From the NCBI GenBank assembly GCA_020344295.1, contig CP070819.1, forward strand, positions 1,684,776 through 1,695,175: 10,400 nucleotides of DNA, written 5' to 3'. The DNA is from Dehalococcoidia bacterium (GTDB lineage Bacteria > Chloroflexota > Dehalococcoidia > SZUA-161). Under the pieces are notes generated by a model. It was not told where the DNA came from, searched no databases, and saw only the letters and a program-made list of their open reading frames with translations. Below are positions 1 through 10,400 of this stretch, one piece after another (position 1 is the stretch's first letter; every line of letters begins with the position of its first letter). Position numbers and translations under genes: made by a program.

Positions 1-286
1 AATTGGCAAACGCTATGGAATGCACGATGCCGTTGAGCTTGGGGTACTTCTTTGAGACATCCTGTGCCAGTTTTGTGATCTCATCTTCGCGTTCCACGTC
101 ACAAGTGTAAATGTCCGCGTCCGGGAAGAGTTTGGATACAGCTTCTTTATGCGCTGGGGACTGGACAACATAGACAACCTGTGCTCCCGCTTCATTAAGG
201 ACCTGACTGACGAAATAGGCGACGCTCTTCTTATTGGCCACGCCGAAGACAAGGAAGGTTTTACCTGAGATGTCCAGGAAGTCCAT
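1..286 (-). CDS. fabI: Enoyl-[ACP] reductase FabI-like, N-terminal part (cut by window edge)
   Basis: This is the beginning of an enoyl-acyl carrier protein reductase of the SDR-type FabI family, which would reduce trans-2-enoyl-ACP with NAD(P)H as the last step of each elongation cycle. I translated 95 complete residues from the ATG at 286; there is no stop before the edge. The FabI-style nucleotide-binding start is clear: GKTFLVFGVANKKSVAY at residues 8-24 (compare GVASKLSIAY in E. coli FabI). The segment GIVHSIAFAN at residues 86-95 matches the family's VHSIxFA motif. The catalytic Tyr-x6-Lys lies beyond the window. An AAAGGGGA Shine-Dalgarno stretch sits 4-5 bases before the ATG. The gene follows fabZ by 23 bases, so it is probably the same transcript. 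The family call is confident; the length and integrity of the rest are unknown. Confidence 0.9.
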   Translation of the reverse strand, partial: MDFLDISGKTFLVFGVANKKSVAYFVSQVLNEAGAQVVYVVQSPAHKEAVSKLFPDADIYTCDVEREDEITKLAQDVSKKYPKLNGIVHSIAFAN

Positions 287-309
287 GTGATCCCCTTTCA
301 CTTACTACT

Positions 310-735
310 TTAGATTGCAGCTTGTGCCATAGTGACACCGAACTCGACTGATACCGCCATCTTTCCTTCTACGGAGGCCTTGCCTTTCATGAAGAAGGCA
401 TTGCTCATCTGCTCCACTATCTCGACTTCCATCTCCAGCGTGGACCCCGGTCTGACTATATTCTTGAACTTGCCGTTGCTGATTCGGGTGAGTACCGGTG
501 TACCCTCGCTGATATCAGTGATAATATTGGAAAGCAAGACCGCCCCGGTTTGAAAGATCGACTCGCAGATAAGTACGCCGGGCATGATCGGATTACCTGG
601 GTAATGCCCCTCGAAAAAGGGTTCCGCAGGGCTTATCTCTTTCGTCGTTTTAATCGTCGTATCCGTTAACTCTACGATCTTGTCGACAAACAGAAAAGGT
701 GGACGATGAGGTATCGAACTCAAGACATCTTTCAT
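310..735 (-). CDS. fabZ: 3-hydroxyacyl-[ACP] dehydratase, FabZ-like
   Basis: This 141-residue hot-dog-fold protein is of normal FabZ length and would dehydrate 3-hydroxyacyl-ACP to trans-2-enoyl-ACP in the cytoplasm. Family marks are IPHRPPFLFVD at residues 8-18 and the active-site helix region EPFFEGHYPGNPIMPGVL at 38-55. The catalytic His is His44 and the partner acid is Glu58 (in LICES), at the usual spacing. The start codon lies one base after the fabG stop, and its GGAGG Shine-Dalgarno sits inside the last fabG codons, so the two are very likely translationally coupled. In the cluster it follows FabG and precedes FabI, the order of the reaction cycle. There is no second dehydratase in the window. 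FabA-type isomerase activity cannot be excluded, but the HxxxxGxxxxP motif and the short length favour FabZ. Confidence 0.92.
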   Translation of the reverse strand: MKDVLSSIPHRPPFLFVDKIVELTDTTIKTTKEISPAEPFFEGHYPGNPIMPGVLICESIFQTGAVLLSNIITDISEGTPVLTRISNGKFKNIVRPGSTLEMEVEIVEQMSNAFFMKGKASVEGKMAVSVEFGVTMAQAAI

Positions 736-736
736 T

Positions 737-1471
737 TTACAGACCTCCAGTTACCTCTAGTGTAGCACCGTTGACATAGGCAGCTTCCTTGGTTGCCAGG
801 AAAAGAACACAGGCGGCGACCTCCTCGGTCTTCCCGAATCTCTTCAAGGGGATCTGTTGTATGTAGGCGTTGCGCAGTTCCTCGGGAAGGTCTTGAATCA
901 AATCGGTTGCGATGAATCCCGGTGAGACACAGTTAACCGTAATGCCGCGGCGGGCGACCTCCTTGGACAGTGATTTGGTCAGTGCAACCATGCCTGCCTT
1001 TGCCGCGGCGTAGTTGGCCTGTCCCTCAAATCCGAATTTGCCTGATGGTGATGTAATGCCGATAATCCGCCCGTATTTTTTTCGCATCATGCTCATCACC
1101 GCAAACTTACACATATAGAAAACGCCGTTCAGATTAACATCGATAACGTCATGCCACTCCGATTCTCTCATCATAGCCAGGACGGCGTCCTTACGAATAC
1201 CGGCGTTATTGACAAGGATCTCGAAGCCCTCATATTTCTGGTCTACGTATTCAAAGAACTTCTCAACCTCTTCGTATTTGGACACGTCACAAATCTGGAT
1301 ATCGATTTTATCAGCGAACTCACTGGTATCCTGCTGGAACTGTTCTGTGGCGGGCTCATTTGAGGCGATAATGACCCGAGCGCCACCCTTCAGGAAACCC
1401 TCGACAATGCTTTTACCTATCCCCCTTACTCCTCCGGTTACGATAGCGGTCTGTCCCTCGAAATCGTACAT
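737..1471 (-). CDS. fabG: 3-oxoacyl-[ACP] reductase, FabG-like SDR
   Basis: This is a 244-residue classical short-chain dehydrogenase with the exact length of a typical FabG. It would reduce 3-oxoacyl-ACP to 3-hydroxyacyl-ACP with NAD(P)H. It shows the cofactor motif TGGVRGIG at residues 12-19, NNAG at 88-91 and the structural Asn113. The catalytic set is Ser141, Tyr154 and Lys158 (QANYAAAKAG), matching the Ser138/Tyr151/Lys155 spacing of E. coli FabG. The C-terminal VNGATLEVTGGL is also family-typical. A GGAGG site (1478-1482) sits 6 bases before the ATG. The gene follows the second CrtI-like gene by 23 bases and is followed by fabZ after one base. The family is certain at the SDR level. The FabG role is inferred from the closeness of the motifs and from the neighbours. 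Confidence 0.92.
   Translation of the reverse strand: MYDFEGQTAIVTGGVRGIGKSIVEGFLKGGARVIIASNEPATEQFQQDTSEFADKIDIQICDVSKYEEVEKFFEYVDQKYEGFEILVNNAGIRKDAVLAMMRESEWHDVIDVNLNGVFYMCKFAVMSMMRKKYGRIIGITSPSGKFGFEGQANYAAAKAGMVALTKSLSKEVARRGITVNCVSPGFIATDLIQDLPEELRNAYIQQIPLKRFGKTEEVAACVLFLATKEAAYVNGATLEVTGGL
744..748 (-). promoter_or_regulatory. Shine-Dalgarno of fabZ inside the end of fabG
   Basis: GGAGG on the minus strand ends 8 bases before the fabZ ATG and overlaps the last codons of fabG. It fixes the fabZ start at 735 and points to translational coupling. Confidence 0.75.
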
Positions 1472-1494
1472 CTGTTACCTCCTGCAAAATAAGA

Positions 1495-2901
1495 TCAGGA
1501 TCGTAGATACTTATCGACATCATTTGAGGCGATCACTCCGTAGTTGGCCGCACCCAGCCACCCTGACATGATGATCCCTACCGAGCCCGTATGAAAGAGA
1601 CCGGGTATCTCATTGTTTAGACCCATGCTGATTTTCAATCCTTCGAATTTCGTGCCGAACGAAGCCCCGCGTTCATGGAGCGTGTATCTCTGGAATGTCC
1701 GGGGGGTAGCGGCCTCAGCGTAATCGATCTTCTCCCGTGCACCGGGTAGGTATTTATCGAGAGCTGCAATTGTGGATTCGATCAGTTCCTGTTTGGAGGC
1801 ACGGTATTCTTCTTCTGGCAGGTATGCCCAATCTTCATAGTTTGCGTTTGTTGAAGCCACAATAGAGTACATCCCGGAGCCGGGGCGTGTTTCCGGGTAG
1901 TATATGGAGTAGGTACGGCTGGTAATATTCCTGCTGCGAAGCATTTCCGAGTCGAATTTCTCCGCAGTAGATGTGAAGAGCAAGTCCCCTATATAATCGA
2001 TCTTCTCGCCCTTCCTGATGCCCATGTAAACCTGGCAACTGCTGTTGTTGAGACGCACCTTGTTGGTTTCATCGATGAAGCTCGCGGAAAAGTGCTGGTC
2101 ACCGACGAGTCTATGGATGGTCGACAGCAGATTGCCATTAGAGACCGCGGCTCTGCATTTAATAGTCTGATCGTTGGCAATCACTCCTGAGACTCTACCG
2201 TCTTCGACGATTATTCTTTCCACCGGGCACCTGGTCCGAATATCAACGCCGTTCTTTATCAGCTCATCCTTCATCTTCCCAATAAATTGGTCAGTTCCGC
2301 CTTGAACGGTGTACACGCCCTTGCTCATGAAGTTTGAAAACACAATGCCATAGCTTATTGCCGGGTCATCGAGAGTCGATCCGTTAGCATATGTTATCGG
2401 CTCCATCAGCAGGCGGACGACGTCGTCGCGTCCGGGGAAGTACTTCTCGAACAGCTCCCTGGCCGTCATTGTCTGGTCGTCATAGTAGTTCATGTCTCTC
2501 GCTTCATTGAAGAAGCCTTCTATACTATCGGCCGGTACCTTTAACTGCTCCTTCAGGATACGAGTGAAATCGTCCCGGTCAAAGGTTGTTGTAAATGAGA
2601 ACTGAGGGTTATCGAATCTTATGCCCTTGAGTTGGACGATCATATCAGCTATTTCAGGAGACCAGTATTTACGGCAGGTCTTAATCATTCCCACCGGGAA
2701 ACCGTGCAGAGAGACATCGAAGATGTGTCCGCCCTTCCGCTTGAACCAAGCCGCCAATCCACCCAGCTGGTGGTGTTGTTCCAGAAGCAAGACCGAGTGG
2801 CCGCTTCTCGCCAGCATGTTGGCGCAGCTAAGTCCCGCCAATCCGCTGCCGATTACTACAGCATCACACTGAGGATTCAAGTCCTTCAAAGCATCACTCA
2901 T
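1495..2901 (-). CDS. CrtI/phytoene-desaturase-type FAD oxidoreductase (second of two)
   Basis: This is a 468-residue flavoprotein of the phytoene desaturase/carotenoid isomerase family, slightly shorter than bacterial CrtI. The N-terminal Rossmann motif is VVIGSGLAG (residues 15-23), with Glu41 ending the second strand to hold the FAD ribose and LGG at 46-48. The middle has [10 protein letters not shown] at about 201-210, [10 protein letters not shown] at 361-370 and TPRTFQRYT at 399-407. The C-terminal FAD-contact segment runs from IPGLFHTGS (432-440) to the end. It starts 18 bases after the preceding CrtI-like gene and has a weak AAAGGGA ribosome site. No phytoene or GGPP synthase is nearby, so a carotenoid substrate is unlikely. 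An ACP-bound or free acyl chain is my inference. The reaction (desaturation, isomerisation, saturation or ring formation) cannot be read from the sequence. Confidence 0.85.
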
Positions 2902-2919
2902 AGATATCTTTCCCTTTAA

Positions 2920-4305
2920 CTATCCCTTCTGCAGAACATGGAGATTTGCCATAGAGATCCCACTGAGCATCGCGCCCACTATCCCCAGAAATCCCTGATC
3001 CGTGCCGCACAGAAACAGGTTTTTCAGGTGAGTAACTCCTGTCTTGATCTTGTTGGGCGTACCATAGACGGCTCCATTCATGTGACCGGTATATCTATAA
3101 ATCGTTTTAGGAGTGAAAACATCTGTATAGACGATATTTGGGCGGAAATCTGGCACGAATTTTACCACTTCATTGAGTGTGGTTTCAAGCCAGACGGTTT
3201 TCTGGGCCTGGTATTGTTCGGGCTCCAGGTTGTTCCAGAGGTCGAAGTTAGCCATGTTGGTTACTCTGATCATGGCTTCCGGCAAGGGCGAGTCGAAGTG
3301 GAAGTTATTCGGGCAGCAAATGACCCCGCTGGAAATATCGAGCAGATCATCCGGTTTCCTGTAGTCGAACCTGTCGGAGTTGTTAAAGAAGGTTATTGTC
3401 GTGTTGTATCCCATTCCGGCCAGTTCTCTGTCAAGGACCATGATGAACTCTACAAATGAGAGGCGACCTACATCATTTATAAATCTTGCAGGATCGTAGC
3501 CCGGCAACAGGCTCATCGTTTCGACGAAACCGGCAGATGACAGCACTTTATCCGCCGTCAACACCTCACCGTTATCCAGTGTCACCGATTCTGCCCTGTC
3601 ATTAGAAACCTGGATACTCTGCACTTCCGACTTGAGCCTCAATTCACCGCCGCAATCCTTGTATTTCTTGACCAGCACATCAAGGATCTGCCGTACTCCC
3701 GCCTGTGGTCTGGCAAATCCCTCACAGAAGATGCTATTAAACATGATGACGAACTGGCCAAATTCCATGTCGTTTTCCTGGGCATTACCGTAATACATCA
3801 GCGGGCAGAAGATCATATCAATTAATACAGGATCGGAGAGGATCGAACCGACAACTTCGCGTGCCGATATCGGTTTTGCATCGAGGGCGAGGGCATCATA
3901 TTCGGCAATCGTCTTGAGCAGCCTCTGGAAGTTATCTGCCTGCTTGGGGAAATTGTCCCTTATCTCCTGAGTAAAAAAGTTCAGGTCGTTGTTAAACCTG
4001 AGGGTTTTATCCGGGAAGCTGACAGCTGACATCCTTTGCTGGCAGAGACCGAAATCATCAGCTTGAATCTTGAGCTGACGCAGTAATTTAGGCAGTGGCG
4101 TCGATTTGGTGCCCTTGGGGACATAGTTGGTCATCGCGTGGAGGCCGACGTCGAATTTATGCCCGTCCCGGCTATAAAATGAGTTGAGCCCCCCGACCCG
4201 ATGGTGTCTTTCGAGGATGCATACCTTCTTGTCGTAATATGCTAACCTGATTCCAGCGGCGAGGCCGGACATGCCGGCGCCGATAATTAGAACATCATAT
4301 TTCAT
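2920..4305 (-). CDS. CrtI/phytoene-desaturase-type FAD oxidoreductase (first of two)
   Basis: This is a 461-residue flavoprotein of the phytoene desaturase superfamily. Residues 5-14 read VLIIGAGMSG, Glu32 is the expected FAD-ribose acid, and RVGGLNSF follows at 36-43. Later family signs are EPEQYQAQK at 361-369, TPKTIYRYT at 398-406 and the C-terminal FAD segment beginning LKNLFLCGT at 427-435. It shares architecture with the adjacent oxidoreductase but is clearly diverged from it (different N-terminal and C-terminal segments), so the pair is not a recent duplicate. It follows the second KASII gene after 167 bases, an interval that holds a hairpin. The ribosome site before the ATG is weak. 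The likely role is redox remodelling of an acyl chain made by the neighbouring synthases. Substrate and reaction are unknown. Confidence 0.85.
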   Translation of the reverse strand: MKYDVLIIGAGMSGLAAGIRLAYYDKKVCILERHHRVGGLNSFYSRDGHKFDVGLHAMTNYVPKGTKSTPLPKLLRQLKIQADDFGLCQQRMSAVSFPDKTLRFNNDLNFFTQEIRDNFPKQADNFQRLLKTIAEYDALALDAKPISAREVVGSILSDPVLIDMIFCPLMYYGNAQENDMEFGQFVIMFNSIFCEGFARPQAGVRQILDVLVKKYKDCGGELRLKSEVQSIQVSNDRAESVTLDNGEVLTADKVLSSAGFVETMSLLPGYDPARFINDVGRLSFVEFIMVLDRELAGMGYNTTITFFNNSDRFDYRKPDDLLDISSGVICCPNNFHFDSPLPEAMIRVTNMANFDLWNNLEPEQYQAQKTVWLETTLNEVVKFVPDFRPNIVYTDVFTPKTIYRYTGHMNGAVYGTPNKIKTGVTHLKNLFLCGTDQGFLGIVGAMLSGISMANLHVLQKG

Positions 4306-4311
4306 GGCTAA

Positions 4312-4359
4312 GCTCGGTCGAAAGATTGCTCCCCTATTTTACAAGGGGAGAAATAGATG
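4312..4359 (-). repeat. Intergenic hairpin repeat, copy downstream of the second KASII
   Basis: A perfect 7-base inverted repeat, CTCCCCT and AGGGGAG (4329-4335 and 4344-4350), encloses an 8-base loop. The flanks (GCTC..TC.AAAGATT before it and AAAT after it) are shared with the copy at 7134-7180, while the loop differs. No strong U-run follows on the transcript strand, so a canonical Rho-independent terminator is doubtful. It could act as a weak terminator, an mRNA-processing or stabilising hairpin, or a dispersed repeat. Confidence 0.7.
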
Positions 4360-4472
4360 TAAACCTTCGGGTTGTATGTTGAGTTTTAAATAAGCCCGCG
4401 TCCCTTGATCCGCCGATAGATTGTCGGATGGACGTTTTATTTCCTGATTCTAGGGAAATAATGGTTTCATTC

Positions 4473-5714
4473 CTACTGTACGTATCTTTTAACTACAATG
4501 ACTGAATTAATGCCGACCATGCCGAATGAATTGTTCAAGATACAGTCAACCTTATCCACTTTAAGGGGTTTGTTTATCACCAGGTTCTTAACAGCACATT
4601 CGGGATCCAGATTGTCGATGTTAATTGTCTGGTGTACGATATGATCTTCGAACGACGGCAGGTTGCCCACCAGCTCCAAGGCGCCCGCTGCACCCATTGT
4701 ATGGCCGATATAGCTTTTTGTGTTATTAATATAGGCATTGGAATTGCTTCCGAGGACCTGTTTAATCGCCTGACATTCCACTTTGTCCCCTTCAGGCGTA
4801 CCGGTGGCGTGAGTGTTGATGATATCGATTTCTCCTGTCGACATACCGGCTTTCTTCAAAGCGAGATTAATACACTCGGCTTGTCTCTCGGCGTTAGGAA
4901 GGACATAATCGAACGCATCCGAGTTAATGGCGTATCCCACGATTTCGCCATATATCCTGGCGCCTCTCGCCAGAGCATCGCTCAATCTCTCCAGGATACA
5001 GACACATCCTCCTTCGGAAACAACAACGCCGTTCCGATCACGGTCAAAGGGGCGTGATGCCTTCCGTGGGTCGGTATGACTTGCCAATGCACGTTCATTC
5101 TTGAAGCTGGCAAAAATGCCGAAGGCGTGGATCACCTCTGAAACACCGCCGGCGAGTGCTAAATCTACTTCATCCAGACGCAGCATCTGCACGCCGTGTA
5201 TAAGGCCAATATTGCCGGCAGCGCAAGCCCCGCCGAGTGTATAGTGGGGGCCAGTAATACCCATGTTCATGGTGACTTCGCCGGCAGGTTCGTTGGCCAC
5301 ACTCCTGGGACTGTGGTGGTGTGACCATACATCTATATCGTAATTGAATTGCTTTATATTGTAGATCTCCTTCTCGGTCTGCACATTACCGTGCTCGGTG
5401 ATACCTAAATAGACCCCGATCCTCGATTTGTCCATGTCGTCTATATTCAGTTCAGCGTCAGCTAAAGCTTCGTGGGAGCAGTAGATAGCGAAAGAACCCG
5501 CTCTCGTTCCCCGGCGCAGTTCCTTCTTTGTCTGGTACTTTGATGTGTCGAAATCGCAGGCGCCGGCTATGACCTCACCCATATAGTGAGCATCGATCGT
5601 TCCTATCCCGGATTCGCCGGCCAGCAGGTTCTGCCTGAACTCTTGGAGATTGTTACCATTCGGTGCTGACAGGCCAATACCGGTTATAACGATCCTTGAT
5701 TGGTTATTCATCAT
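4473..5714 (-). CDS. 3-oxoacyl-[ACP] synthase II-like (FabF family), second copy
   Basis: This is a FabF-type elongating beta-ketoacyl-ACP synthase of normal length, expected to condense malonyl-ACP with an acyl-ACP. Numbering from the longest frame (GTG at 5729, 418 residues), the catalytic Cys169 lies in GGACAAGNIG, with His307 (NTHATGTPEGD), Lys338 and His343 (NTKSYIGH). The set is complete, so this is not a chain-length-factor-type partner. The basic docking patch KKELRR (68-73) resembles that of E. coli FabF. Unusual points are a His triplet WSHHH (135-139) and the gate loop SFGMVGIN (401-408) in place of SFGFGGTN. I place the start at the ATG at 5714. The next ATG (5711) aligns with the start of the sister copy, and the GTG at 5729 has its purine stretch too close. 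It follows the KASIII gene by 36 bases. Confidence 0.88.
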   Translation of the reverse strand: MMNNQSRIVITGIGLSAPNGNNLQEFRQNLLAGESGIGTIDAHYMGEVIAGACDFDTSKYQTKKELRRGTRAGSFAIYCSHEALADAELNIDDMDKSRIGVYLGITEHGNVQTEKEIYNIKQFNYDIDVWSHHHSPRSVANEPAGEVTMNMGITGPHYTLGGACAAGNIGLIHGVQMLRLDEVDLALAGGVSEVIHAFGIFASFKNERALASHTDPRKASRPFDRDRNGVVVSEGGCVCILERLSDALARGARIYGEIVGYAINSDAFDYVLPNAERQAECINLALKKAGMSTGEIDIINTHATGTPEGDKVECQAIKQVLGSNSNAYINNTKSYIGHTMGAAGALELVGNLPSFEDHIVHQTINIDNLDPECAVKNLVINKPLKVDKVDCILNNSFGMVGINSVIVVKRYVQ

Positions 5715-5750
5715 TTTGAAGCCATTCACCTCTATGGCTGTCCTACGATA

Positions 5751-6800
5751 CTACCATTCCAGACCGAGCATTATACAGGATAGTCCGCTACCGATACCCA
5801 GCATTGTAACCTTATCACCAGCCTTAACGTGCCCCTCCTCAATTCCGACTGCTGTTGAAATGGGCAATGAGCACGCACCTACATTCCCTAGGTAATGTAC
5901 GGTCGCAAATCCCTTGGATTTATCTAATTCAAGTGTGCGAAACACCATGTCCTGATGGATGGCACTGACCTGGTGGCTGAAGACCTTATCAACATCCCCG
6001 TTTTTCCATAAAAGTTCTTGCTGGAAGGCTTTCCAGGTCTCGGCTGCTAATCCCAGGCCGTTTGTCAGAATTCCCTCAAAGTCCGCCTGCATGTTGGGGT
6101 AATATGTGGAATCGAAAAAACAGGTATCAATTGGTATCCGGCACAAGTCCTTATGCTGAGAGGCCGTCCTGACAACGCCGCCCAGAAGTCTGTGCCCCGA
6201 TGTCGACAGAGAGGAATGAGTCATTACCACTGCCACAGCTCCAGAGCCGAGGGTTAAAGAAGCAAACTGAGGTTTGAGCTTATCCCTGGTGATATCTGGA
6301 TCGTTTAGAATGTCGTGAATTGTATTCTCCGTCATCCTTCTACTGCTTTCGCTACCAACCACAATCCCGGCTTTCACCTGGCCCAACTCGATCATGTTGG
6401 CCAGTGTTACCATGCCATTGATAAAACCGATACACGCATTCGATATGTCGAATGTAGTGGTTGAGCGAGGAAGATCTAGAGAGTCATGGACAACGAGAGC
6501 TGTTGCGGTCTCCAAGTAATCACGACAAACAGAAGTATGAAGAAGACACTCAATGTCTTCCTTGTTTATTCCTGAATCGGCTATAGCTTTCTCCGCTGCT
6601 TTTGTGCTTACCTGGCTGGGCCTGGTATCTTCACCCCAGAATCGCCGCTCGCGGATTCCCGTCATCATCTCGAATCGTCCGGGTGAGAGCTTCAGTTTCT
6701 CGTATACGGGCGCCAGTCTCTCTTCCAGGCTTAATGAGGTGATGATTGTATCCGGGATCTCATATGAGAACGATTCGACGCAAACCTTCTCATATCTCAT
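5751..6800 (-). CDS. KASIII/OleA-like thiolase-fold condensing enzyme, second copy
   Basis: This is a 349-residue thiolase-superfamily synthase of the FabH/OleA branch. It has the KASIII triad: Cys123 (SNACIGFINGM), His276 (FSHQVSAIH) and Asn306 (YLGNVGACS). Glu97 in RDYLE lies 26 residues before the Cys, and the His-Asn spacing is 30. Both spacings equal those of OleA (Glu117/Cys143 and His285/Asn315). OleA condenses two fatty acyl-CoAs head to head, whereas FabH primes with malonyl-ACP; which applies here is not known. Against the sister copy it has Cys92 for Ser92 and Thr98 for Pro98 next to Glu97. The ATG at 6800 has AAGGG about 9 bases upstream. A 445-base gap with a candidate promoter precedes it, so it may open a second transcript running through to fabI. 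Confidence 0.85.
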   Translation of the reverse strand: MRYEKVCVESFSYEIPDTIITSLSLEERLAPVYEKLKLSPGRFEMMTGIRERRFWGEDTRPSQVSTKAAEKAIADSGINKEDIECLLHTSVCRDYLETATALVVHDSLDLPRSTTTFDISNACIGFINGMVTLANMIELGQVKAGIVVGSESSRRMTENTIHDILNDPDITRDKLKPQFASLTLGSGAVAVVMTHSSLSTSGHRLLGGVVRTASQHKDLCRIPIDTCFFDSTYYPNMQADFEGILTNGLGLAAETWKAFQQELLWKNGDVDKVFSHQVSAIHQDMVFRTLELDKSKGFATVHYLGNVGACSLPISTAVGIEEGHVKAGDKVTMLGIGSGLSCIMLGLEW

Positions 6801-6892
6801 TTCTGATAACCCTTAGCAAGGCGTTAATATATTTATGACCTATTCATCCGATGTTTTTCACCGGGCATAGATCTTGTGTCATCGATAGTACC

Positions 6893-6942
6893 ATTATATA
6901 CGAGTAATTAAGTACTATTACACTTCGTGTGCTATATGTCAA
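6893..6942 (-). promoter_or_regulatory. Candidate sigma-70-type promoter before the second KASIII gene
   Basis: On the minus strand a perfect TTGACA (6942-6937) is followed after 16 bases by TAATAG (6920-6915), a weak -10 box. A perfect TATAAT lies further down at 6898-6893, without a good -35 at the right distance. Either could start a leader of roughly 90-115 bases before the KASIII ATG. The AT-rich context fits, but the boxes do not form one ideal pair. Confidence 0.35.
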
Positions 6943-7032
6943 CAGCATCGAATTAACAATTATTTACTTATCCTCCATTCATTGTTCATAAATAGGTAAC
7001 TTCGTGTAGTGATAAGTGGACAAATCACATCG

Positions 7033-7068
7033 GACAGGAGCAATATAACTGAGGCAGTTATACCTGTC
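7033..7068 (-). other. Nested hairpin in the intergenic region
   Basis: A perfect 8-base stem, TATAACTG and CAGTTATA (7044-7051 and 7055-7062), closes a 3-base loop. It is extended by a 6-base outer stem, GACAGG and CCTGTC (7033-7038 and 7063-7068), with a 5-base bulge on one side. Fourteen pairs in 36 bases is unlikely to be chance. No U-run follows on the transcript strand, so it is not a textbook terminator; an attenuator, an operator or part of a structured leader is possible. Confidence 0.6.
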
Positions 7069-7087
7069 AGATTTCGCAGTGAAGCCG

Positions 7088-7129
7088 GTATGCCCCCGCT
7101 ACCGCATTGTGGGACGGAGCAACGCATAC
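7088..7129 (-). other. Inverted repeat, possible middle hairpin of a structured leader
   Basis: GTATGC (7088-7093) and GCATAC (7124-7129) form a 6-base inverted repeat. Next to it a CUCC/GGGG pairing on the transcript strand could extend the helix. It lies between the hairpin repeat (7150-7171) and the nested hairpin (7033-7068). The pairing is hand-derived and weaker than its neighbours. Confidence 0.3.
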
Positions 7130-7133
7130 TCAT

Positions 7134-7180
7134 GCTCAATCAAAGATTACTCCCCTTGTGAAACAGGGGAGAAATTGTTG
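7134..7180 (-). repeat. Intergenic hairpin repeat, copy downstream of the ACP gene
   Basis: The same CTCCCCT/AGGGGAG stem as at 4312-4359, here at 7150-7156 and 7165-7171, with a different 8-base loop. The AAAGATT flank and AAAT on the other side are conserved between the copies. Stem and flank conservation with loop change suggests that the structure is maintained, or that the two came from one dispersed repeat family. Confidence 0.7.
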
Positions 7181-7245
7181 CAGGCTCTGGGAATATCTGC
7201 GATATGAATTCATGTTATGCAGTTTGCTTTATCGACATCAATAGG

Positions 7246-7497
7246 CTAGATGTCTTTCATCAGCGGCTCCAAATAGGCAACCGAGCTGTCCAATGTAGAC
7301 AGTTTCATATAGTCGTCTTCCGGTACAGTGATACCGTAGCGCTTTCGCAGCTCCATTATGATGTCAAGGAAATCCATCGAGTCCATCTCGATCTGGTCCC
7401 TAATACGGACGTCCGGCTTGAGGTCACTAAGGTCTTCGTCGGGCACTATTTCATGGATGACCTCTAGAATCATGGCTTTGATTTCGTCTGCTTTCAT
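7246..7497 (-). CDS. Acyl carrier protein
   Basis: This 83-residue acidic protein has the ACP four-helix pattern and would carry the growing acyl chain on a phosphopantetheine arm. The attachment Ser40 lies in EMDSMDFLDI, a DSM variant of the common DSL. It aligns with E. coli ACP from there through the ITVPEDD loop. At the end of helix II the E. coli acidic triplet Glu47-49 is replaced by Arg51-Lys52-Arg53, while Asp39, Asp42 and Asp45 keep the acidic front of the helix. The ATG at 7497 has AGGGGA (7505-7510) 7 bases upstream. It follows the first KASII by 42 bases and is the only carrier protein in the window, so it is probably the shared carrier for both synthase pairs. The phosphopantetheinyl transferase must be encoded elsewhere. 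Confidence 0.93.
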   Translation of the reverse strand: MKADEIKAMILEVIHEIVPDEDLSDLKPDVRIRDQIEMDSMDFLDIIMELRKRYGITVPEDDYMKLSTLDSSVAYLEPLMKDI

Positions 7498-7539
7498 GTG
7501 TGGTTCCCCTTCTGTTACAGTTATAATCGGGCCTTACTG

Positions 7540-8778
7540 TTATTCTGCATATCTCTTGACAATAAGGGCAGAATTGATGCCCAGCATTCCAAATGAATTG
7601 TTAAGGATATAATCGATTTTGTCAACCTTTCTGGGCTCGTTGATTACTAGGTTGAGCAGGGCGCAATCCGGGTCCAGGTTATCGACATTAATTGTCGGGT
7701 GGACCGTGTAGTCGTCGAAAGAAGGCAGGTTACCCACAAGTTCAAGAGTACCTGCTGCTCCCATGGTATGGCCGATATAGCTCTTGGTGTTGTTAATATA
7801 GGTATGTGAATTGTTGCCTAAGAGTTCCCGAATCGCTTGGCATTCTGCCTTATCGCCCTCAGGGGTTGCAGTCGCGTGGGTATTGATGATGTCAATCTCA
7901 CTCGCTGAAATGCCTGCTTTTTTTAGGGCGAGATTCATACACTCTACCTGCCTCTGCGGATTTGGCAGAATATAGTCAAACGCATCTGAGTTAATAGAGT
8001 ATCCGACGATTTCACCGTAGATAGTGGCCCCTCTGGCGATGGCATCATTCAATCTCTCCAGCACGCACAAACAGCCGCCTTCGGAAATCACGACGCCGTT
8101 TCGATCTTTATCGAATGGACGGGATGCTTTTGTGGGATCGGGATGGCTTGCCAATGCCCCTTCGTTCTTGAAAGCGGCGAAAACACCGAACGTATTGGGA
8201 GTTTCGGATACACCACCGGCCAGAGCGAAATCAACCTCATTTAGGATCAACATCTGCTGACCTTGAATAAGGCCGATATTGCCGGCGGCACACGCTGCCC
8301 CAAGTGTGTAATGGGGACCGGTGATGCCCATGTTCAAGGTGATTTCGCCGGCAGGACTGTTGGCTACCGTTCGTGGATTATGGTGGTGGGACCATATATC
8401 GATATTATAGTCGTATTGCTTGATGTTATATATTTCATGTTCGGTTTCGACGTTGCCGTGCTCGGTAATCCCAATATATATACCAATTCTCGATTTATCA
8501 ACGGAATCGAGGTCCAGTTTCGCATCTTCAATGGCTTCATGGGCGCAGTAGACCGCTATCGACCCGGCTCGTGTACCTCGTCGTAGCTCTTTTTTCTTCT
8601 GGTGCTTCAGCGGATCGAAATTGCACACACCGGCTATGACTTCGCCCATGTAGTGTGTCTCAATTGTCCCCACTCCGGATTTGCCTGCAAGCAGATTCTG
8701 CCGAAATTCTGCGAGGTTGTTTCCAATGGGCGCTGTCAGACCAATTCCAGTTATTACAATTCTTGCTTCGTTTGGCAT
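7540..8778 (-). CDS. 3-oxoacyl-[ACP] synthase II-like (FabF family), first copy
   Basis: This is a FabF-type beta-ketoacyl-ACP synthase and close paralogue of the copy at 4473-5714. Numbering from the longest frame (TTG at 8796), it has Cys169 (GAACAAGNIG), His307 (NTHATATPEGD), Lys338 and His343 (NTKSYIGH), so it should be a competent condensing enzyme for malonyl-ACP extension. It shares with its sister the His triplet WSHHH (135-139), a basic KKELRR docking patch, and the altered gate loop SFGMLGIN (401-408). It differs by Ala for Gly three residues after His307. I chose the ATG at 8778 over the TTG at 8796 because it aligns with an ATG in the sister and gives the normal FabF N-terminus (ARIVITGIG follows directly). 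No strong Shine-Dalgarno is visible. The ACP gene follows after 42 bases. Confidence 0.9.
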   Translation of the reverse strand: MPNEARIVITGIGLTAPIGNNLAEFRQNLLAGKSGVGTIETHYMGEVIAGVCNFDPLKHQKKKELRRGTRAGSIAVYCAHEAIEDAKLDLDSVDKSRIGIYIGITEHGNVETEHEIYNIKQYDYNIDIWSHHHNPRTVANSPAGEITLNMGITGPHYTLGAACAAGNIGLIQGQQMLILNEVDFALAGGVSETPNTFGVFAAFKNEGALASHPDPTKASRPFDKDRNGVVISEGGCLCVLERLNDAIARGATIYGEIVGYSINSDAFDYILPNPQRQVECMNLALKKAGISASEIDIINTHATATPEGDKAECQAIRELLGNNSHTYINNTKSYIGHTMGAAGTLELVGNLPSFDDYTVHPTINVDNLDPDCALLNLVINEPRKVDKIDYILNNSFGMLGINSALIVKRYAE

Positions 8779-8821
8779 GCTGGTAACCGTATACAATGTA
8801 TGCTTGTCTGGGATTCTGGTG

Positions 8822-9871
8822 CTACCACAATAGCCCCAGCATAATGGAGGACAACCCGCTGCCGGCGGCCATCAGCACAACCTTATCTCCAGGATCAATA
8901 CGCCCCTGCTCGATTCCGATAGAGAGAGAAATAGGGAGGGAACAGGAACCAATGTTACCCAGATATACCAAGGTGGAGAAGCCAATAGATGCATCCATCT
9001 CCAGAGTACGGAATAGCAACTCGTGGTGGACGGCGCTCACCTGATGGCTGAAGATTTTATCAATTTCTGCTTTCTTCCAGCCTATCTCTCGCTCGAAGGC
9101 GTCCCATGTTTCATTCACCAGTCCCACGCCGTTCTTCAGGATTCCCTGGAAGTCCGCATGCATATTGGGATAAGAGGCTGGATCATAGAAACAGGTGTCA
9201 GCTTCCACGCGGCAGAGGCCGTTATGCTGTGAGGCTGTGCGTACTGCACCTCCCACTATCCTGTGGATGGACTTCGACAGTGACTGGTTAGTGAGTACCG
9301 CCGCTACTGCTCCCGATCCCAGGGTCATGGAGGCAAAGCCATCTTTAAGTTTTCCCCTGTCTACTTCGGGATCGTTTAAAAGTTCGTTGATTGTTGCATC
9401 AATAAGGCGTCTGCTGCTCTCCCCTCCGACTACAATCCCGGCCTTAACCTGGCCCAGCTCTATCATATTTGCCAGCGTGACCATGCCGTTTATGAAACCT
9501 ATGCAGGCATTCGAGATGTCGAAGATCAATGCTGAAGGAGGGAGCCCCAGTGAATCATGAACTACAAAAGCTGTCGCCGGTTCGAGAAAATCGCGGCTGA
9601 CGGAAGTATGGAGTAGGCATTCGATATCCTCTTTCGCAATTCCCGAATTGGCAATGGCCTTCTCTGCTGCTTTGGTGCTGGCCTGACTCGGTGGCATATC
9701 CTCAGGCCAGAGGCGCCGTTCGCGGATTCCGGTCATTATTTCAAGCCGCCCGTAGGAACGCTTGAGCTTCTTGTATACGGGCTCAAGTCGCTCCTCGAGA
9801 GCTACTGATGTAACAGCCGTCTCCGGGAGTTCGTACCCAAATGCCTCAATGCAGACTTTCTTGTATCGCAT
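8822..9871 (-). CDS. KASIII/OleA-like thiolase-fold condensing enzyme, first copy
   Basis: This is a 349-residue FabH/OleA-branch synthase. Cys123 is in SNACIGFINGM, His276 in FSHQVSAVH and Asn306 in YLGNIGSCS, which gives the Cys-His-Asn triad of KASIII enzymes. Glu97 in VSRDFLEPAT is in the position of the OleA glutamate that deprotonates the second substrate (26 residues before Cys, as in OleA). The motif around it and NACIGFxNGM look more like OleA than housekeeping FabH. The ATG at 9871 has AGGGA 8 bases upstream. It follows the unknown repeat protein after 44 bases and precedes a KASII gene by 43 bases, in the same order as the downstream cassette. Likely jobs are starter-unit condensation or joining two acyl chains. 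Genes for the later olefin steps (OleB, OleC, OleD) are absent from the window. Confidence 0.87.
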   Translation of the reverse strand: MRYKKVCIEAFGYELPETAVTSVALEERLEPVYKKLKRSYGRLEIMTGIRERRLWPEDMPPSQASTKAAEKAIANSGIAKEDIECLLHTSVSRDFLEPATAFVVHDSLGLPPSALIFDISNACIGFINGMVTLANMIELGQVKAGIVVGGESSRRLIDATINELLNDPEVDRGKLKDGFASMTLGSGAVAAVLTNQSLSKSIHRIVGGAVRTASQHNGLCRVEADTCFYDPASYPNMHADFQGILKNGVGLVNETWDAFEREIGWKKAEIDKIFSHQVSAVHHELLFRTLEMDASIGFSTLVYLGNIGSCSLPISLSIGIEQGRIDPGDKVVLMAAGSGLSSIMLGLLW

Positions 9872-9915: not shown

Positions 9916-10332
9916 TTATGGCTTGAGTGTCTTGTGCCTGTCATCTCTTGACAGTAACGTCGGTATGTGGAATCGTGTCTTGATGTTCGCCCAGTCCGCG
10001 GCGGACTCAGGTGGAATTATCCTGTCCGGTAAATATTTGTATACCCCTGAGATGACAGCGGAGACCTTCCTCGAACTTGCCACTGTATCCGGCACGTACT
10101 CATCGGCTGCAGTGATAAGAGAGGAACGCAACCTCGGCGGAAGTTTGTCAAGTCCGTTGATGATACCCTCGATTGCCCGTGGGGGAACGTGTTTATCGAG
10201 CGTATTCAAGTAAAAGAGGAGGAGCCTGTCAGGCACCAGTTTTTCCACCGCTTTTACTTCAAACGATATGACTTTCTTTGAGACAAACTTGGCCGGCTGT
10301 TCCAGGATTTCCTTTGTTTTGTCTAATATCAT
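9916..10332 (-). CDS. Unrecognised 138-residue protein with a ~16-residue repeat
   Basis: I do not recognise this protein. It has no signal peptide or membrane segment and is rich in charged residues. A short pattern, two or three residues with a Lys/Glu/His then Val/Leu-Pro followed by Asp or Pro, recurs five times: KLVPDR (31-36), KHVPPR (47-52), KLPPRL (63-68), EYVPDT (78-83) and KYLPDR (99-104). The prolines fall at 34, 50, 65, 81 and 102, so the first four are spaced 15-16 residues apart, each followed by a predicted helix. This suggests a small helical repeat protein, perhaps a binding or membrane-surface protein. The ATG at 10332 is supported by a strong GGAGGTGA site. It leads the KASIII-KASII-ACP genes by 44 bases, so it may belong to the operon. 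Its function is unknown. Confidence 0.75.
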   Translation of the reverse strand: MILDKTKEILEQPAKFVSKKVISFEVKAVEKLVPDRLLLFYLNTLDKHVPPRAIEGIINGLDKLPPRLRSSLITAADEYVPDTVASSRKVSAVISGVYKYLPDRIIPPESAADWANIKTRFHIPTLLSRDDRHKTLKP

Positions 10333-10346: not shown

Positions 10347-10400
10347 GCACTAGCCTGCTCGGTCAACGGCCGTATCGGGGTGGTGTAAGAGTATCCAATA

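Follow-up and report, generated by a model that had tools for sequence, protein, structure and literature searches.

What acyl chain is built by an operon that joins the enzymes of type II fatty acid elongation to two beta-ketoacyl-acyl carrier protein synthase III (KASIII) proteins and two flavoproteins of the CrtI family? This question is raised by a 10,400-nucleotide stretch of a sediment Dehalococcoidia bacterium (contig CP070819.1; hereafter the window, meaning the whole stretch) in which all 11 genes lie on the minus strand. From the first transcribed to the last, these encode a 138-amino acid (aa) protein, KASIII_1, the elongating ketosynthase KASII_1, an acyl carrier protein (ACP), KASIII_2, KASII_2, the CrtI-family proteins CrtB and CrtA, FabG, FabZ, and a FabI cut off after 100 codons. 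Our analysis suggests that the operon probably encodes a type II synthase that works without oxygen and supplies OleA with a polyunsaturated chain. This would lead to a C31:8/C31:9-type hydrocarbon in relatives bearing ole genes and to an OleA product in the window's lineage. A first-pass annotation of the same DNA had predicted an unusual polyunsaturated, cyclized, or long-chain lipid; we grade an unusual unsaturated lipid as probable.

Both KASIII proteins resemble OleA

The KASIII proteins were classified by family models, solved structures, and active-site residues. Both exceeded the curated cut-off of NF006720 (285 bits). Their top solved structures were 3row and its kin (207–215 bits); we take entry 3row to be Xanthomonas campestris OleA. 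For KASIII_1, the top structure scored 207 bits versus 82 bits for the next other KASIII chain. A Glu aligned to Glu117 of OleA, 26 residues ahead of the catalytic Cys, was kept together with the Cys, His, and Asn in all 38 aligned KASIII rows. Glu117 and Cys143 are numbered as in OleA (PMC7064751). A Glu-based mechanism is described as unique to OleA homologues, with Pro after the Glu in all proteins but two (PMC7064751). The following residue is Pro in KASIII_1 and Thr in KASIII_2. By these sequence criteria both window KASIIIs are predicted to be of the OleA type, and the OleA-like pair named in the first-pass annotation agrees in both copies with the model, structure, and residue evidence.

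The operon core recurs across phyla

In what follows, L numbers denote loci or stretches, G numbers denote genomes, and organism names are those of the record titles. A CrtA search of genome contigs, able to reach close relatives only, gave 44 loci. Their titles read Chloroflexi/Dehalococcoidia, Deltaproteobacteria, Nitrospirae, Planctomycetes and families thereof, and Muiribacteriota, besides one unclassified bacterium. Related clusters had been anticipated in other anaerobes, and sulfate reducers were among the bacteria that proved to have them. In these loci, which were fetched with CrtA alone, the first of the searched genes ahead of CrtA was CrtB, on the same strand, in 36 of 44, so the gene set of the window is not a chance assembly. 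Unrelated open reading frames (ORFs) lie between the two genes in a few of the 36 (L031, L042). The other eight comprise L044 and L046, which begin inside CrtA, and L011, L023, L026, L033, L034, and L037, where CrtB was not detected within the stretch. Identity to the window was 60–89% for CrtA (31 rows, several phyla) and 51–85% for CrtB (24 rows). The core that recurs across phyla is KASII-ACP-CrtB-CrtA-(FabG)-FabZ-FabI.

Coupling of the core to ole genes

Outside Chloroflexota, this core is often coupled to ole genes. It comes after oleA, oleC, and oleD in the Nitrospirota loci L024, L025, and L028. There, OleD (L028) and OleC (L025) matched NF042422 and NF045786 strongly, at scores under the cut-offs, and OleC was above that of NF006754. 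In L172, L173, and L179, assigned to the phylum of G056 and no finer, oleA, a hydrolase ORF, oleC, and oleD stand between crtB and crtA, overlapping or closely spaced. We take the hydrolase to be OleB-like; the L172 protein, from the one locus of the three given a family scan, matched haloalkane dehalogenase models below cut-off. L176, taken as Desulfogranum mediterraneum, carries the core with oleA, oleC, and oleD.

The frequency of this arrangement was estimated in two phyla. In the phylum of G056, CrtA was present in 22 of 395 genomes (24 CrtA matches), and 15 of the 24 matches were fetched as stretches, picked for contig room and not for ole genes. Nine of these 15 had oleC/oleD within ~13 kb, in L185 on the opposite strand. 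The second draw was Planctomycetota, the phylum of L045 (Pirellulaceae title), with CrtA searched at E 1e-40 and OleC at E 1e-80. Among 246 genomes, 51 had CrtA, 88 had OleC, and 50 had both (Fisher p 9e-27, uncorrected for shared ancestry). OleC was thus found in 50 of 51 genomes with CrtA, G308 being the sole one without it, versus 38 of 195 genomes without CrtA. In 20 of the 50 genomes, CrtA and OleC start at most 17 kb apart on the same contig.

OleC was not found in the window's lineage

A different picture emerged for Chloroflexota. OleC was found in none of nine genomes of the window's family when searched at 1e-40, and the window's genome therefore does not show a hydrocarbon pathway. 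A search of 35 genome and locus handles at 1e-60 found OleC in none of the 13 from Chloroflexota (12 distinct genomes, as G008 and L008 are the same). The query evidently works, because 17 of the 22 non-Chloroflexota handles matched in the same search (those without were L007, L011, L021, L035, and L044). OleD was not found in the stretches of the Chloroflexota loci, OleB and OleD not having been searched genome-wide. An unrooted tree of the 38 KASIII rows placed the window, L144, L007, and the Chloroflexota rows (19 rows) on one side of a branch with 100/99 support and 19 OleC-linked rows on the other, the genomes of L010, L015, L018, and L019 not being tested for OleC. As OleA is kept while OleC was not found, the product of the window's family should differ from that of ole-bearing relatives, and is perhaps a ketone.

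The same data bear on an alternative in which the OleA-type KASIII is a starter enzyme. The operon would then make a polyunsaturated, polyene, or otherwise modified fatty acid with no head-to-head joining in Dehalococcoidia, perhaps followed by transfer of the chain to a lipid by an acyltransferase. Consistent with this, KASIII stands at the head of the operon and was doubled along with KASII, OleC was not found in the family genomes or Chloroflexota handles, and a condensation-domain acyltransferase occurs near several Chloroflexota clusters (downstream of FabI in L011). Retention of the OleA-specific Glu in both copies argues against it, as does the margin by which KASIII_1 prefers solved OleA over any other KASIII chain. 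We regard a starter role as unlikely.

A second synthase in at least four cluster-bearing genomes

The cluster was next compared with the ordinary fatty acid machinery of its relatives. CrtA was present in seven of 40 relatives, all within one family of nine. Four of the seven (G001, of the same genus and 88% complete, G002, G004, and G008) have a separate FabF scoring 190–198 bits versus 114–138 for the cluster KASIIs. In addition, family member G007 has FabF, and CrtA was not found there. In at least four of the seven family genomes that bear it, the cluster thus constitutes a second synthase, which bears out its description as a dedicated acyl-chain cluster. No high-scoring separate FabF was found in the other three: G000, G005 (94% complete), and G006 (90% complete, no ketosynthase match). 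G000 is the source genome (2.14 Mb, 70.6% complete, Chloroflexota-like), where no FabF beyond the two window KASIIs was found. In the seven genomes, none of them complete, no ketosynthase match lay in a frame longer than 561 aa, so a Pfa-type multidomain ketosynthase-ACP protein was not seen in them.

These counts bear on the operon as the ordinary, non-accessory fatty acid operon of the lineage. The lack of another FabF in G000, and of a high-scoring one in G005 and G006, would fit such a role. Against it stand the incompleteness of G000, the separate FabF of the four relatives, and the possession of FabF without CrtA by G007. We consider a housekeeping role very unlikely, and in the window's own genome the cluster is likely a second synthase besides the housekeeping one. 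An ordinary fab operon was the outcome which the first-pass annotation had named as fatal to its proposal; it is disfavored by the four relatives, less firmly so for the window's own incomplete genome.

Proposed function and mechanism

We propose that the operon encodes a type II fatty acid synthase that serves a single acyl chain and most likely works alongside the housekeeping one. Elongation on the operon's own ACP would be run by KASII, FabG, FabZ, and FabI. In some rounds, the CrtI-family flavoproteins would set cis double bonds without oxygen; from trans-2 enoyl-ACP, one would most likely form the cis-3 and the other the cis-2 isomer. The OleA-type KASIII would join the polyunsaturated chain head to head. 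In ole-bearing relatives (Desulfobulbaceae, Nitrospirota, and Planctomycetota), OleB, OleC, and OleD would finish a polyunsaturated long-chain hydrocarbon of the C31:8/C31:9 type. The OleA product of the window's lineage probably either remains a beta-keto acid or the corresponding ketone, or serves another enzyme as substrate. Polyunsaturation, isomerase roles, and products are what we infer beyond gene content, gene order, the ole coupling of relatives, the OleA residues, and the separate FabF of four of seven genomes.

The chemistry can be worked back from a known product. The double bonds of C31:9 lie at positions 3, 6, 9, 12, 15, 19, 22, 25, and 28 (PMC4882568). By our derivation, its formation from two C16 chains joined head to head needs 4,7,10,13-hexadecatetraenoyl units. 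Built in two-carbon rounds from the methyl end, each unit would call for isomerization to cis-3 at C6 and C12 and to cis-2 at C8 and C14, with full reduction otherwise. Both isomerizations (trans-2/cis-3 and trans-2/cis-2) have been postulated for dehydratase domains of the Pfa polyunsaturated fatty acid (PUFA) synthase (PMC4882568). The operon holds one FabZ, no FabA-type enzyme, and nearly always the same two CrtI-family flavoproteins, whose best or second-best NCBIfam match, below cut-off, was carotenoid isomerase. We propose that CrtA and CrtB act as enoyl-ACP isomerases.

For this step only, the pair might instead be true desaturases of a finished saturated or monounsaturated acyl-ACP, which we hold to be unlikely. 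Membership of the CrtI family favors desaturation, and such a role was proposed for Kuenenia and Desulfotalea by Rattray et al. (PMC2649909). However, the same authors state that the first double bond is hard for such enzymes, and lycopene was not formed from phytoene in E. coli by either of two anammox homologues, the expression of one being poor (PMC4790861). A desaturase scheme would also have no need for dedicated FabG, FabZ, and FabI.

Returning to the isomerase scheme, we tentatively suggest a broader form of it, which is possible rather than probable. The operons could represent a hitherto undescribed cross-phylum class of oxygen-independent type II PUFA synthase, with the CrtI pair as trans-2/cis-2 and trans-2/cis-3 isomerases feeding OleA. 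The Dehalococcoidia form, without OleC and in part with duplicated OleA/KASII, would make polyunsaturated long-chain ketones or related lipids.

Besides the lack of OleC matches in the family and the three genomes without a separate FabF, several points weigh against a polyunsaturated-chain synthase for OleA. Every product of these operons is a prediction, and the CrtI-like proteins could be desaturases or reductases. In six of the 15 stretches from the phylum of G056, oleC/oleD were not in range (L171, L178, L180, L181, L182, and L183, the last with only a 27% OleC match). The co-occurrence counts include shared ancestry, with at most five to six first-look candidates scored per genome. Nine planctomycete stretches were chosen for nearby OleC and are not counted toward frequency. 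Finally, the C31:9 producers known at the time of PMC4882568 are said there to make eicosapentaenoic or docosahexaenoic acid as well, which misfits Desulfotalea as described by Rattray et al.; the putative link of its genes DP2405/DP2406 to CrtB/CrtA is drawn only from their consecutive numbering.

Comparison with ladderane gene sets

The first-pass annotation had likened the cluster to ladderane-type gene sets. A ladderane or other ring-forming pathway, as in anammox bacteria, would draw on the same enzyme classes (FabF, FabZ, and CrtI-like) as the Kuenenia candidates (PMC2649909). To compare sequences, we took as presumed anammox, by inference, the 12 genomes with one or two near-full-length PF18582 matches in frames of 809–845 aa. 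PF18582 matches occurred in 46 of 246 genomes, many of which had long or multi-copy proteins; in some further genomes, frames of this size stood among numerous or partial matches. In 11 of the 12 genomes the best CrtI homologue was 26–29% identical to CrtA, and none was found in the remaining one. CrtA and CrtB each formed one side of a branch with support of 99 that excludes the presumed anammox CrtI proteins, in a tree with long branches made by a quick method. The likeness was not upheld at this level.

Gene neighborhoods and active sites were consistent with this separation. In L142 (presumed anammox), FabZ-like, two FabF-like, CrtI-like, and radical S-adenosylmethionine (SAM)-like ORFs follow in succession. 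Frames of at least 150 aa were scanned for the radical SAM motif CxxxCxxC. In L001 and L002, which hold the window, and in the Chloroflexota loci, the only hit was a 155-aa frame of L005 antisense to FabZ/FabI, on short contigs beyond which distant genes are possible. As first suggested, the lack of a radical SAM gene would set the window apart from the anammox sets. Since motifs were found in the non-Chloroflexota loci L023, L141, and L184, a lack of them does not characterize the operon family in general. Altered FabF active sites, a feature of the anammox ladderane candidate set, were not seen; Cys-His-His was read by eye in both window KASIIs, which thus retain a Cys that three Kuenenia paralogues are without (PMC2649909). 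The resemblance to the Kuenenia candidates therefore extends to FabZ, FabF-like, and CrtI-like genes side by side (as in L142), while the differences comprise remote sequences, radical SAM partners, and altered active sites in three FabB/F paralogues. We reject a ladderane pathway as extremely improbable on CrtI remoteness, clade placement, and the radical SAM scan of these short contigs. At L142:9127-12022, within the only presumed anammox locus examined over a long stretch, a CrtI-like gene is directly followed by the radical SAM-like ORF.

Relation to known systems

A protein search with CrtA, evaluated by name among its best 120 matches, recovered Desulfogranum mediterraneum, Desulfobulbaceae bacterium DB1, Desulfobulbus elongatus, and Desulfobulbus propionicus; Desulfotalea was not among these matches. 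Desulfobulbus and Desulfogranum presumably belong to the same order as Desulfotalea. We regard the operon as a candidate source of the C31:8 and C31:9 hydrocarbons of Desulfotalea. Desulfotalea psychrophila makes both without polyketide-type PUFA genes, and such hydrocarbons have also been reported from Planctomycetes (Rattray et al. 2009, PMC2649909). Its CrtI-like genes are DP1860, DP2405, and DP2406, and those authors already proposed an anaerobic PUFA extension of type II fatty acid synthesis (PMC2649909). Like ours, the Desulfotalea cluster belongs to an anaerobe and combines FabF paralogues with CrtI-like genes, of which DP2405 and DP2406 bear consecutive numbers. It differs in its published treatment, where OleA does not appear in the main text and the cluster is grouped with the anammox set (PMC2649909).

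Two further systems are informative. The OleABCD pathway of Xanthomonas and Shewanella (PMC7064751, PMC6463001) resembles our system in its OleA-type KASIII with Glu, Cys, His, and Asn, and oleABCD lie in the same operon in some relatives. In contrast to that pathway, the window operon adds its own type II acyl synthase and two CrtI-like flavoproteins, and OleC was not found in its family. In Shewanella and Geobacter bemidjiensis, a Pfa PUFA synthase is the dedicated synthase that feeds polyunsaturated chains to Ole (PMC4882568), as we propose for the window's kin. The latter use discrete type II proteins, one FabZ, and two flavoproteins, unlike the multidomain Pfa with its FabA-like dehydratases.

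New here are the association with ole genes, the distribution over phyla, the distance from the genes of presumed anammox bacteria, and a Chloroflexota form without OleC. No report of these was found in the literature searched, most subscription papers being outside its scope, nor was any link between ole genes and CrtI-like or phytoene genes. How an anaerobe without Pfa makes highly unsaturated chains has been a puzzle since C31:8/C31:9 were reported from Desulfotalea. The operon supplies candidate genes and a mechanism testable in vitro, and cultured hosts are found among the species of Desulfobulbus and Desulfogranum. If the proposal is true, PUFA synthesis would have a second enzymatic solution, one argument for assigning CrtI-like genes to ladderanes would lose force, and biomarkers would be predicted for Dehalococcoidia, sulfate reducers, and planctomycetes of sediments.

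Gene layout of the window

All genes named in the first-pass annotation (two KASIII, two KASII, ACP, two CrtI-like, FabG, FabZ, and FabI) were found on the minus strand at 2–9871. Its account of one strand with short gaps is refined here by a partial FabI, two longer gaps, and an 11th gene. Intergenic gaps are 1–44 bp, except for 167 bp between CrtB and KASII_2 and 445 bp between KASIII_2 and ACP. The doubled KASIII-KASII is a tandem duplication, with 69% identity between the KASIII copies and 76% between the KASII copies; CrtA and CrtB share 24%.

The window coincides with exactly one assembly contig, with 100-N gaps directly before base 1 and after base 10400. The scaffold neighbors are therefore unsafe context and were set aside. 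Only the first 100 codons of FabI are present because the contig stops there; in relatives, a full-length FabI follows FabZ.

Table 1. Genes of the window, with coordinates in window positions and supporting matches
Feature	Coordinates	Strand	Evidence
FabI, enoyl-ACP reductase, first 100 aa, cut by contig end	2..301	-	PF13561 2.6e-16; top NCBIfam FabI models ~1e-19, under cut-off because partial
FabZ-type 3-hydroxyacyl-ACP dehydratase, 141 aa	310..735	-	PF07977 5e-24; NF000582 FabZ above cut-off; FabA models far weaker
FabG, 3-oxoacyl-ACP reductase, 244 aa	737..1471	-	NF009466 above cut-off; TIGR01830 6e-85
CrtA, CrtI-family flavin adenine dinucleotide (FAD) protein, 468 aa, proposed isomerase or desaturase	1495..2901	-	PF01593/PF13450; own tree clade
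CrtB, second CrtI-family FAD protein, 461 aa, proposed isomerase or desaturase	2920..4305	-	PF01593/PF13450; top NCBIfam TIGR02730 carotenoid isomerase, below cut-off; own clade
KASII_2, elongating ketosynthase, second copy	4473..5729	-	PF00109/PF02801; Cys-His-His kept (read by eye)
KASIII_2, predicted OleA-type, second copy	5751..6800	-	NF006720 426 bits vs cut-off 285; structure 3row 2e-62; Glu, Cys, His, Asn kept; Thr replaces Pro after Glu
ACP, 83 aa	7246..7497	-	PF00550 3e-10; DSMD phosphopantetheine site (read by eye)
KASII_1, elongating ketosynthase	7540..8796	-	PF00109/PF02801; Cys-His-His kept (read by eye)
KASIII_1, predicted OleA-type	8822..9871	-	NF006720 405 bits vs cut-off 285; structure 3row 5e-60; Glu97-Pro, Cys123, His276, Asn306
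Conserved 138-aa protein, operon head	9916..10332	-	No hit in Pfam or NCBIfam; position conserved in Chloroflexota loci

Variation among loci

The CrtA sequences closest to that of the window (84–89%) came from L003, L004, L005, L006, and L009, all with Chloroflexi/Dehalococcoidia titles, and one Planctomycetota-titled record, L007, reached 90%. L007 (Planctomycetota bin1449 chromosome) is a near-copy of the window cluster at 86–94% identity, with a partial KASII and a cut CrtA match; it would reflect recent transfer, misbinning, or an assembly error. Three CrtA paralogues occur in genome G398 (L180, L182), two of them without the rest of the operon within 20 kb.

Genes beyond FabI also recur. 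A match to the phosphopantetheinyl transferase of L004 follows FabI in 25 of the 44 loci, with FabD after it in six (L003, L004, L005, L006, L009, and L046); both names derive from family scans of the L004 proteins. A condensation-domain acyltransferase and its neighbor, which we take to be DUF362-like, recur beside the operon at L012:14471-17265, L011:6445-9134, and comparable sites, the acyltransferase being named from a family scan of the L012 protein. In L011 the two come after FabI, past a 140-aa ORF.

At the head of the operon, KASIII-KASII is doubled in the window, L004, and L009, as well as in L007, where the first KASIII was not detected; L008 and L010 have a single pair. In Chloroflexota versions of the operon, the 138-aa protein (9916–10332 in the window) lies directly upstream of KASIII, with 48–80% identity.

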